Positions 1 to 5,532 of a stretch of 6,472 nt of DNA are shown here, piece after piece. Each line of letters starts with the position of its first letter. Positions within the stretch are counted from its first letter, which is position 1. Below the pieces are notes generated by a model that saw only the letters and a program-made list of their open reading frames with translations, searched no databases and was not told the origin of the DNA. The position numbers were made by a program, and so were the translations under genes. Where the stretch lies: NCBI GenBank assembly GCA_040757115.1, contig JBFLYA010000213.1:1-6472 (forward strand). Reading direction: 5' to 3'. Origin of the DNA: a bacterium (GTDB lineage Bacteria; UBA9089; CG2-30-40-21; SBAY01).

Positions 1-127
1 TTGTTTTCCACAATCAATTTCTACCTATTTCTATAAATTTCAATCTATTTCTATTATCTTATCTCCATATCACTCTTATCTCCTTATCCCCTTTCTTACA
101 CTTTTGATATATAGCTTGAACGGTTAC
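1..127 (-). mobile_element. Partial IS66-like MITE, copy A (inverted relative to the copy at 4368-4596)
   Basis: Read on the minus strand from 127 down to 1, this stretch matches 4368-4486 with about four mismatches over 119 aligned bases plus one 8-nt indel. Copy A carries the extra 8 nt, as a near-tandem GATAAGGAGATAAG. It begins with the terminal repeat GTAACCGTTCA and continues into the same purine-rich arm with TAGAAATAG repeats. The element runs off the left edge, so its other end and target duplication cannot be seen; the flanking 8 bp on the visible side are GATTTTTA (128-135). The end lies inside the 3' end of rpe. No coding capacity of its own. Confidence 0.85.
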
Positions 128-767
128 GATTTTTAAGACTTTTTATTGCCTCAACAGGGTCTTGAGCACCATAGACAAAAGAGCCTGCGACTAAAACATT
201 TGCCCCTCGTTTGACGACTTCAGCCCCGGTCTCAAGGTTTATTCCGCCATCTACCTCAAGGTCTAAATTAAGTTTTTTTTGAGTTATAATCTTGTTTAAT
301 TGCTCTATCTTGGGCAAAACATCATTGATAAATCCCTGTCCACTAAAGCCTGGATTAACGGTCATCACCAGGGCAACATCTATCTCTTTTAGAACAGGAT
401 AAATTTTATCCAGTGGGGTTGGCGGATTGATAGATACACCGGCTTTTACTCCCCTATCCTTTATCTTCTGAATATTTAACATCAGGTCATCTGTAACTTC
501 GGCATGAAAGGTGATTAAATCCGCACCAGCATCAATAAACTTATCAATAAATTTATCCGGATTAGTAATCATCAGATGAACATCAAAGAAAAGATTACTC
601 TTTTTGCGAAGATTTGCGACGGCATCTGGTCCAAAGGTAAGATTATCGACAAAATGTCCATCCATAATGTCCCAATGTAACCAATCGGCAACATCTTCTA
701 TTTTTTCTACCTCGCTGGCTAATTGACTGATGTCAGCTGATAATATTGAAGGTGCTATCTTTATCAT
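96..767 (-). CDS. rpe: Ribulose-phosphate 3-epimerase, C-terminus supplied by a MITE
   Basis: Interconverts D-ribulose 5-phosphate and D-xylulose 5-phosphate in the cytoplasmic pentose phosphate pathway. The 223-aa product is normal length for this (beta/alpha)8 TIM-barrel family. Visible hallmarks are the N-terminal APSILSAD (residues 5-12), the metal ligands H31 and D33 in HWDIMDGHFV, H64 in DVHLMI, the phosphate loop NPGFSGQGF (138-146), and D173 in VDGGI, the second acid/base. The start at 767 gives the family-typical MIKIAPSILSAD beginning. Upstream in-frame ATGs at 806 and 782 fall in the -35 and -10 boxes of a strong promoter, so they are unlikely. Residues 215-223 and the TAA stop are encoded by the end of a MITE (1-127), so the native tail has been replaced; the catalytic barrel is intact, so activity is probably kept. 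No strong Shine-Dalgarno is visible. Function is confident; the start is fairly confident. Confidence 0.95.
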   Translation of the reverse strand: MIKIAPSILSADISQLASEVEKIEDVADWLHWDIMDGHFVDNLTFGPDAVANLRKKSNLFFDVHLMITNPDKFIDKFIDAGADLITFHAEVTDDLMLNIQKIKDRGVKAGVSINPPTPLDKIYPVLKEIDVALVMTVNPGFSGQGFINDVLPKIEQLNKIITQKKLNLDLEVDGGINLETGAEVVKRGANVLVAGSFVYGAQDPVEAIKSLKNRNRSSYISKV

Positions 768-2532: not shown

Positions 2533-3651
2533 ATGGAAAAATCATCATCTGAAACAAGACGATATGTTATTTTAAAAGAGATTTATAAAAAAAGGGTTGT
2601 CTCTAACGATGATTTAATGGATAAATTTGGAGTTTCGTTAGTAACAATTAGAAAGGATTTAGATGAACTTAAATCACTGGGATTGGTAAATAGGACATTT
2701 GGTGGGGCAGTCCCTATCATGGCAAAGGTAAATGAAGATAATTTGGAAGGTTCTATTGAAGACCGCTCGGAGATAATTGCCATTAGTAAATATATTGTCG
2801 ATAAAAAAGTTATAAAAGATGGTGATATTCTATTTATGGATGGTGGAATAATTATTAATATGCTGGCAAAAAGATTATCTGATAAAAAACCAGGACACAT
2901 CACTGTCATTACAAATGCCGTCAATGTCGCCAATGAACTTGCCTCTAAATCAAATGTTATTCTCACCGGCGGTGACCTGAAAGACACCCAGGGAGTTCTC
3001 TCAGGAAATTTATCTACCCAAACAATTGACCAATATTCAGTTGATGTAGCATTTATAGATGTTGATGGCATATCGTTTAATAGCGGATTATGGGCTAAAG
3101 ATGAAGTTGAGGCTCAGGTTAAAAAGCGAATGATTAAAGGAGCAAAGCAGGTAATAATTATGATCAAACATTCAAAATTAGGTCACGAGGTAGGTCAAGT
3201 GTTTGCAGAATTTTATCTTGAAGAAGGAAATAATCTGAAACTTATGCTCCCGGATTTAAAAGATGAAAAAACAGTGAGATTAGATTTTGTTGATCTACCA
3301 TCTGATTATAAATCATTAGAAAATGACCCTGTTCAAAAGTGGCTTGAAAAGAATTTAAAGGAAAAAGGTATAACCGAACCAATCTGGGTCAAAGAAAAAG
3401 CAGGTGGTAGGTTTGAAATTATTGATGGTAAAAGAAGGTATTTGGCGGCTAAATCACTTGCAGATGAAGGCTCAAGCACCTTTTCTTCCATCCCCATAAA
3501 ATTTGAAAAAGAATCTTGTGTCAAGCGTGATTTCCAGATTATCACCTCGTCAAAATACCTCAAGCAAGATGTGGCAAAGAAACACTTTTTAGCAGAAAAG
3601 AGAAAATTCGAAGAGATAGCCCCAAATACCTTCATTGATATTGCCGATTGA
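2533..3651 (+). CDS. DeoR-family regulator fused to a ParB-N-like C-terminal domain
   Basis: A 372-aa predicted DNA-binding regulator; typical DeoR repressors are near 250 aa. Residues 1-60 are a DeoR winged helix-turn-helix with recognition helix VSLVTIRKDLDEL and the FGGAVP end motif. Residues about 76-232 follow the DeoR sugar-phosphate sensor fold: KDGDILFMDGG, ITVITNAVNVANEL, TGGDL, VDGISFNSGL, KHSKLG. Usual ligand residues are altered: the D-x-G-S/T-T motif is DGGIII (103-108), GLT is GLW (185-187) and DHSK is KHSK (212-215), so the normal sugar-phosphate effector may not bind. Residues about 255-345 are extra. KEKGITEPIWVKEK followed by RFEIIDGKRRYLAAKSL (293-309) closely resembles the ParB N-terminal segment around its GERR motif, here GKRR, and is followed by IPIKF. 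The later ParB ENLQR motif and HTH are not evident. The gene probably follows the FapA gene in one transcript and ends one base before repeat DNA. DeoR assignment is confident; the ParB-like assignment is by pattern only. Confidence 0.85.
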   Translation: MEKSSSETRRYVILKEIYKKRVVSNDDLMDKFGVSLVTIRKDLDELKSLGLVNRTFGGAVPIMAKVNEDNLEGSIEDRSEIIAISKYIVDKKVIKDGDILFMDGGIIINMLAKRLSDKKPGHITVITNAVNVANELASKSNVILTGGDLKDTQGVLSGNLSTQTIDQYSVDVAFIDVDGISFNSGLWAKDEVEAQVKKRMIKGAKQVIIMIKHSKLGHEVGQVFAEFYLEEGNNLKLMLPDLKDEKTVRLDFVDLPSDYKSLENDPVQKWLEKNLKEKGITEPIWVKEKAGGRFEIIDGKRRYLAAKSLADEGSSTFSSIPIKFEKESCVKRDFQIITSSKYLKQDVAKKHFLAEKRKFEEIAPNTFIDIAD

Positions 3652-4367: not shown

Positions 4368-4596
4368 GTAACCGTTCAGGCTATATATCAAAAGTGTAAG
4401 AAAGAGGATAAGGGCGATATGGAGATAAGATAATAGAAATAGATTGAAATTTATAGAAATAGGTAGAAATTGATTGTGGGAAACAACAAATTTCCATAAA
4501 TTTCTATTAGTTTCTACTAATTTCAATTTTTTTAATAATATCTCCCTATCTCCTTAATCTCCACATCTCCTTTTGTTACCCCACCTGAACGCTTAC
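4368..4596 (+). mobile_element. 229-bp IS66-like MITE, complete copy B
   Basis: The ends are GTAACCGTTCAGG (4368-4380) and CCTGAACGCTTAC (4584-4596), inverted repeats with one mismatch (GTAA[C/G]CGTTCAGG). Perfect 8-bp AAAAATGG copies flank it. Beyond the ends, the arms are loosely complementary: the left is purine-rich with GGAGATAAGATAATAG and two TAGAAATAG units 20 nt apart (4434, 4454), and the right is the pyrimidine-rich counterpart, so the whole element can fold into a long imperfect hairpin centred near 4487. IS66-family elements are known for GTAA termini and 8-bp duplications. No transposase is encoded, so it must be mobilised in trans. A nearly identical inverted half copy is at 1-127. 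Confidence 0.9.
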
Positions 4597-4604
4597 AAAA
4601 ATGG
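4597..4604. repeat. 8-bp target-site duplication, right copy
   Basis: AAAAATGG directly after the MITE right end, identical to 4360-4367. Confidence 0.9.
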
Positions 4605-4755
4605 ACATTTGAGAGCTAAACATCCATCACTACCTCATAAAGATTGGATTTCGGATTTCCCTTATACTAATCCCTTAGTCTTAATTAAAAGACAAGATGT
4701 GAGTCCTCCTTTGGTCATATGGATTACCCATTTTCCTTCCGTGATGTATGTTTAA

Positions 4756-5045
4756 ACGCATTACCCAGAGATGCTTTAACCTAACCTATTTATTCATCTC
4801 CGACAAGGACATTGCCAGTGCTTCGCTGAGAAAGGGCAGTTGGCACGAGTTAATACGCCATAATCATACACCCCAATAGGTCATCTGTAATTCGTCACTC
4901 CATCATATCACCTCACGATGATACCCTGTCTTTCTGTAGATACGGATTGCTCCTTTATCTACATAATTACAAACTTCTATACAAGGATTAGGCTTGCATA
5001 GGTGGTTTTCCCAACCACTCTGGTATCCCATACTTCAAAGCACAC
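4756..5045. other. Gene-free block, higher GC than its neighbours, possibly decayed RNA element
   Basis: No convincing reading frame on either strand. By eye it is richer in G+C than the flanking repeats and holds small stems such as GTGGTT/AACCAC (5002-5007/5013-5018, 5-nt loop) and AGTG/CGCT around CTT near 4817-4827. It lies upstream of the intron-like 3' end at 5340 and could be a remnant of the same or another intron, but no intron 5' end or reverse transcriptase fragment could be identified. Confidence 0.3.
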
Positions 5046-5228
5046 CAAATCTCAAAACGCAAAACGCAAAACTACAACGCAAAGCTCAAAACTATTTTTA
5101 TTATGGACTTTCGCCGGTTTTCAAAGAATCCTATATTTTTTGACCTCCGTTCAGAATGGCACTGAATTAGTTTTAAGGTTTTGAGTTTCAGCTTTGAGTT
5201 TTGACATTTGAGTTTTGAGTTGATTTTT
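5046..5228. repeat. Inverted arrays of CAAAAC(G/T)CAAAAC-type decamers
   Basis: The left array (5046-5093) is built from units such as CTCAAAACGC, AAAACGCAAAACT and AAAGCTCAAAACT. The right array (5172-5228) has the complementary TTTGAGTTTT, AGCTTTGAGTTTT and TTTGAGTTGA units. They face each other across about 78 nt, giving a potential long imperfect stem. The unit strings are degenerate and near-periodic at about 10 nt, which suggests slippage as well as inversion. No gene inside. Confidence 0.65.
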
Positions 5229-5339
5229 GCAAAAATTGCTTACCAAAGAATCACAAATTGTCACCCTAATATAGTATAGGATTGTATGGAGACTATCGTG
5301 TCAATTGAGCGAACGCCTTAAGATGAGTGATTATCGGAA

Positions 5340-5500
5340 AGCCGTGTAAGGGAAAACCTTCGGGTCACCCACGAAGTGGGTCGGGTTTGATGCGGGGGTG
5401 TTGGAGAAGTGCTATAGTGAACCTAAAACAGGCATCGTTGGAAACGATTGAGGCAACCAAAGGAACACCTACGGTAACTCGCCAGTGCTCTACTCTACTA
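5340..5500 (+). ncRNA. Possible decayed group II intron 3' end (domain V/VI-like)
   Basis: AGCC (5340-5343) can pair with GGTT (5384-5387) in the manner of the domain V catalytic AGC/GUU base, followed by AAGG-GAAAA-CCTT (5348-5360). Domain V is normally a single hairpin of about 34 nt; here an extra stem ACCCAC-GAA-GTGGGT (5367-5381) takes the place of the expected closing strand. GGTTTGATG then leads into a domain VI-like helix with GGTGTT (5397-5402) pairing AACACC (5464-5469), an inner stem ATCGTT/AACGAT, and the end GTGCTCTACTCTACT (5485-5499) typical of intron 3' junctions. No reverse transcriptase precedes it. Assignment is by recalled motif style only. Confidence 0.4.
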
Positions 5501-5532
5501 AAAAAGGGGTGAAGTTGGGCTAAAAGTAGGAT

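Follow-up and report, generated by a model that had tools for sequence, protein, structure and literature searches.

The window analysed here, a stretch of 6,472 nucleotides, is contig C213 of genome G000 (4.32 Mb in 462 contigs). It carries the gene for ribulose-phosphate 3-epimerase (rpe) on the minus strand, the last codons of which run into the end of a short repeated element (a MITE), and a second, complete copy of the same element lies further to the right. The relevant features, by window coordinates, are as follows:

99–767, minus strand (frame to 96 including the stop; start codon 767–765, TAA 98–96): rpe, ribulose-phosphate 3-epimerase, 223 amino acids, identified by the PF00834 profile and solved Rpe relatives
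128–135, minus strand: target site TAAAAATC (GATTTTTA on the plus strand), first copy of an 8-bp duplication, with its second copy at C239:122–129 and a single copy in genome G001 (L010:1521–1528)
126–128, minus strand: hybrid codon 214 (CGT, Arg), with C from rpe and GT from the element, by codon-by-codon reading
96–125, minus strand: element-encoded codons 215–223 (NRSSYISKV) and TAA stop, by codon-by-codon reading
115–127, minus strand: 13-bp terminal repeat GTAACCGTTCAAG, from the sequence and the motif count
1–127, minus strand: left end of the MITE inserted in rpe, where the contig ends within the repeat; the remainder is C239:1–121 (L135) of the same genome
4360–4367, plus strand: AAAAATGG, left copy of the 8-bp duplication (direct repeat) of the complete MITE
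4368–4596, plus strand: second, complete copy of the rpe MITE (229 bp), common to G001 (G001:C22:13900–14129, ~100%)
4597–4604, plus strand: AAAAATGG, right copy of the same duplication (direct repeat)

The identity of rpe is clear from a Pfam profile search, in which PF00834 was complete (1.1e−73, residues 3–199 on profile positions 1–198 of 198), and from the comparison with solved Rpe relatives (best 2fli, 2.2e−60). Two other regions of the window were recorded as side observations. Positions 4693–5530 are partly repeated at many places in both genomes (e.g., 98% over 360 bases on C334, 88% over 220 bases on C37) and have no Rfam match, and positions 2533–3648 encode a DeoR-type regulator followed in frame by a weak ParB_N-like domain (5.7e−6), which is an unusual combination.

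The first-pass annotation had placed a terminal repeat starting at 127 on the minus strand inside the rpe frame, and had derived residues 215–223 together with the stop from the element. The repeat GTAACCGTTCAAG does read downwards from 127, the numbering is right, and codons 215–223 as well as the TAA lie wholly within the element. They read AAC CGT TCA AGC TAT ATA TCA AAA GTG TAA, i.e., N R S S Y I S K V and stop, which gives the predicted C-terminus ...KNRNRSSYISKV. As the twelfth base of the terminal repeat is A in the rpe copy and G in the family, the tail encoded by this copy contains a serine in place of a glycine; the standard family end in the same frame would encode NRSGYISKV and a stop.

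The element measures ~230 bp (full copies 227–239 bp) and is bounded by 13-bp terminal repeats (GTAASCGTTCAGG), which in the complete window copy appear as the inverted ends GTAACCGTTCAGG and GTAAGCGTTCAGG. No transposase gene is present, all six frames of this copy being broken by stops. The first 127–147 bases of the window match at least ~40 other places in G000 at 96–100% identity (97–100% for the 127-bp stretch) among the best of 319 candidates, and at least about 40 full copies were found in G000 and likewise at least about 40 in G001. In G000 the terminal motif GTAANCGTTCANG was counted 541 times and in G001 500 times, compared with 2 and 1 occurrences of the reversed control, and it is found in other genomes of the phylum too, in smaller numbers, while the left end of the element was sought in viral contigs and not found there. 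In the copy survey, which covered the stretches around the scored copies, nearly all copies were 236–239 bp long and 17 of the 41 full copies had a perfect 8-bp duplication. Short, gene-less, bounded by terminal inverted repeats and a duplication, present in many copies, and present or absent at given sites between relatives, the element is a MITE. As RNA it folds along its whole length (−75.5 kcal/mol, z −8.7), though scanning the complete copy for terminators returned none by consensus in spite of the strong fold, and no Rfam RNA family was found in the window.

A likely origin of the element is suggested by an IS66 transposase relic (PF03050, DDE_Tnp_IS66, 1.9e−39) at C277:3061–4623 (L136; 1563 bp), a single frame with two internal stops that is flanked by identical 13-bp repeats (GTAACCGTTCAGG). 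The terminal motif occurs a third time inside the relic frame, at 3441. Both ends of the relic are identical to the left end of the MITE, and IS66 members produce 8-bp duplications (PMC3281130), as does the MITE; judged by these shared ends and duplications and one decayed transposase copy, the MITE is most likely IS66-type. It differs from IS66 insertion sequences in having no gene and a length of about 230 bp. That some non-IS66 transposase family mobilises the MITE appears unlikely given the identical ends and the 8-bp duplications, even though just one relic with matching ends was seen, which has two stops and no matching 8-bp duplication around it, and no intact transposase copy with MITE-type ends occurred in the stretches surveyed.

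The insertion in rpe can be dissected with the help of G001, a genome of the same genus in which rpe and its neighbour are 98.8% identical to G000 over 773 bases, up to the boundary of the element. The site is empty in G001, where rpe ends in a different tail (...AIKSLKN-QRKNE, then stop) and its last bases (ATGAATAA) contain the start of the next gene, so that the two genes overlap. Only 7 of the preceding 213 codons differ between the two genomes, and the tail is therefore the largest difference between their Rpe proteins. As a separate observation, six of these seven differences fall within nine adjacent codons (174–182, window 222–248), a clustering that would fit the exchange of a short tract. 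When the G001 flank was used as a query against G000, it matched contig C239 (99% identical) through the eight bases TAAAAATC and then broke off at the element's other end. Contig C239 thus starts with the second half of the element, behind which come the 8-bp duplication (GATTTTTA), the former end of rpe and then its downstream neighbour, and the order deduced for G000 is rpe...TAAAAATC / element / TAAAAATC / AGAGGGAAAATGAATAAATC. The ends of C213 and C239 overlap by 21 bp inside the element, giving an rpe copy of about 227 bp; since this copy is split over two contigs, its joining rests on the 8-bp duplication, the 21-bp overlap and the synteny with G001. The earlier description of a MITE end serving as coding sequence and stop of rpe, together with its expectation of an empty site in a close relative and of a second end and an 8-bp duplication beyond the window, is borne out: the empty site, both ends, the duplication and the exact codons are all visible in the two genomes. 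The pattern is not due to chance, because the 127-bp stretch is repeated genome-wide, the motif count is 541 against 2 in the control, and the predicted duplication and second end were both found.

An assembly chimera, in which the end of a contig joined rpe to an unrelated copy of an abundant element while the real gene is uninterrupted, would fit a contig that does end inside a repeat and a genome in 462 pieces. In addition, 24 of the 41 full copies (L172–L211) have no perfect duplication, suggesting that some repeats were misjoined; the simplest reason for these missing duplications may be that the fragmented assembly joined near-identical repeats wrongly, and recombination between copies could be another. 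However, an independent contig has the opposite element end followed by the expected eight bases and the expected downstream gene, and it is very unlikely that two chimeras would share one junction base and also show the correct duplication, so we give this explanation very little weight compared with a true insertion.

For the enzyme, the consequences of the insertion appear slight. Among 109 Rpe sequences from the loci of relatives (including the window's own), the tail after the last helix varies in both length and sequence, and many end at the insertion point or at most two residues from it, often at residue ~212. The ending SYISKV was absent from all 109 C-termini except that of the window's own gene, i.e., no relative among them had the same terminal residues without the element, the observation that the first-pass annotation had named as speaking against its reading. 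The active-site His/Asp residues H31, D33, H64 and D173, which in this family act as metal ligands or in acid-base catalysis, were invariant among 38 Rpe relatives. The predicted model (mean pLDDT 94.9) has a complete barrel, with values of ~97 over most of the core that fall to 77 in residues 211–220 and 52 in residues 221–223, and its last helix extends into the new residues, to 220. Full Pfam coverage, conserved residues and predicted structure hence agree with the earlier statement that the barrel was not broken. What should be toned down is the significance implied by that annotation: the insertion is real, but the five replaced residues lie outside the conserved core and many relatives have no tail there. 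Given that relatives often stop at ~212 and that the barrel is predicted with high and the tail with low confidence, the change is probably close to neutral for Rpe. That the tail has instead been taken into service and selected for changed stability, oligomer contacts or turnover of Rpe is highly improbable: the frame is open, the core gene is intact and the predicted helix continues to residue 220, but model confidence is low in the tail, the tails of relatives vary freely and are often absent, and the insertion is recent, leaving one sequence only for any substitution pattern.

A more tangible effect of the near-neutral insertion may be that on the operon. The gene after rpe encodes NHL and TPR repeats (profile search); its 8-base overlap with rpe has been lost in G000, where a gap of roughly 210 bases containing a strong hairpin now follows the rpe stop, and it still has its own AGAGG before the ATG. 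A loss of translational coupling from rpe to this gene is plausible from such an arrangement.

Taken together, we consider it very likely (probability about 0.93) that, once G000 and G001 had split, a ~230-bp non-autonomous MITE of the IS66 type jumped into the final codons of rpe, resulting in a near-neutral exchange of tails. Eight base pairs (TAAAAATC) would have been duplicated in this event, and the element end would have entered in the frame nGT AAC CGT TCA, which by accident offers nine open codons and then a TAA. The five-residue tail of Rpe (QRKNE) would thereby have been swapped for a ten-residue one (R plus NRSSYISKV) with a ready stop, and the copy with the insertion may have survived because the lost residues lie outside the barrel.

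Every reading frame that enters the element meets a stop: at one end this comes within 0, 9 or 22 codons, at the other within 0, 6 or 20. Among 175 distinct ends in the stretches surveyed, about ten were entered by frames of ≥ 80 codons; L224, L235, L177 and L228, which have such long frames into element ends, were left out of the family-supported count. At least two further genes with family support, for a DegT-type aminotransferase (profile 4–359 of 360; L207 = G000:C191) and a GerM-type protein (1–117 of 117; L199 = G000:C21), take their stop from the element, both genes ending on the TAA in the terminal GTAA of the element with a perfect 8-bp duplication each. The GerM relative in G001, where the element is absent, ends in LIYQHKKKE and a stop, while the DegT site in G001 has changed too much to count as a clean empty site. 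In G000, recO (L188:2100–2260) reads 19 residues into a related element (extension NRSGSPLPQRRRGTEKIWK). It was considered as a second tail made by insertion and rejected, as the insertion is shared with G001 (L251, G001:C125) and the stop there precedes the element, which makes it a case of read-through. Because G001 has the same insertion with a TGA directly before the element, where G000 has TTA, the stop of recO was most likely lost after the insertion. It is improbable that in this lineage the IS66-type MITE, abundant as it is, serves as a cassette for gene 3' ends in general, supplying stops and a hairpin and having rewritten many C-termini and 3' ends of which some were kept by selection. 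The rpe case itself, which concerns an enzyme of central metabolism, indicates that a transposon family can provide stops and new protein ends in a way that the gene survives, and it is unusually clean in that the empty site, both ends, the duplication and the codon exchange are visible in two near-identical genomes.

This changes no concept, since C-termini supplied by MITEs are known from Coxiella and enterobacteria. In Coxiella burnetii, QMITE1 and QMITE2 provide the last residues or the stop for about a dozen functional genes, their ends overlapping the 3' ends of ubiB, pntAA, mutT, nagZ, recN, ruvB, and others, and EnhC gains 33 residues from QMITE2 in one strain while the stop lies just before the element in another (PMC5896051). 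The MITE described here resembles the QMITEs in that its ends contribute either the terminal residues of a protein or just a stop, and the contrast between the EnhC strains parallels that of recO in G000 and G001, whereas the sequences and hosts are unrelated. The enterobacterial RU-1, a MITE-like element, is fused to the 3' end of the ECA3499 amidase gene past the conserved domain, with the normal stop removed (PMC2759123); as in rpe, the element sits at the 3' end of an enzyme gene outside the conserved domain, but it is a different element and adds a longer tail. Rickettsia palindromic elements are likewise small repeats found in frame within many protein genes (PMC10969869, review); they carry a conserved open frame, whereas the readable stretch in the MITE is short, arises by chance from its terminal repeat and falls at the extreme 3' end of the gene. 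Compared with the QMITEs, the rpe case stands out in that a close relative still shows the empty site and that it was the insertion event which exchanged the tail.
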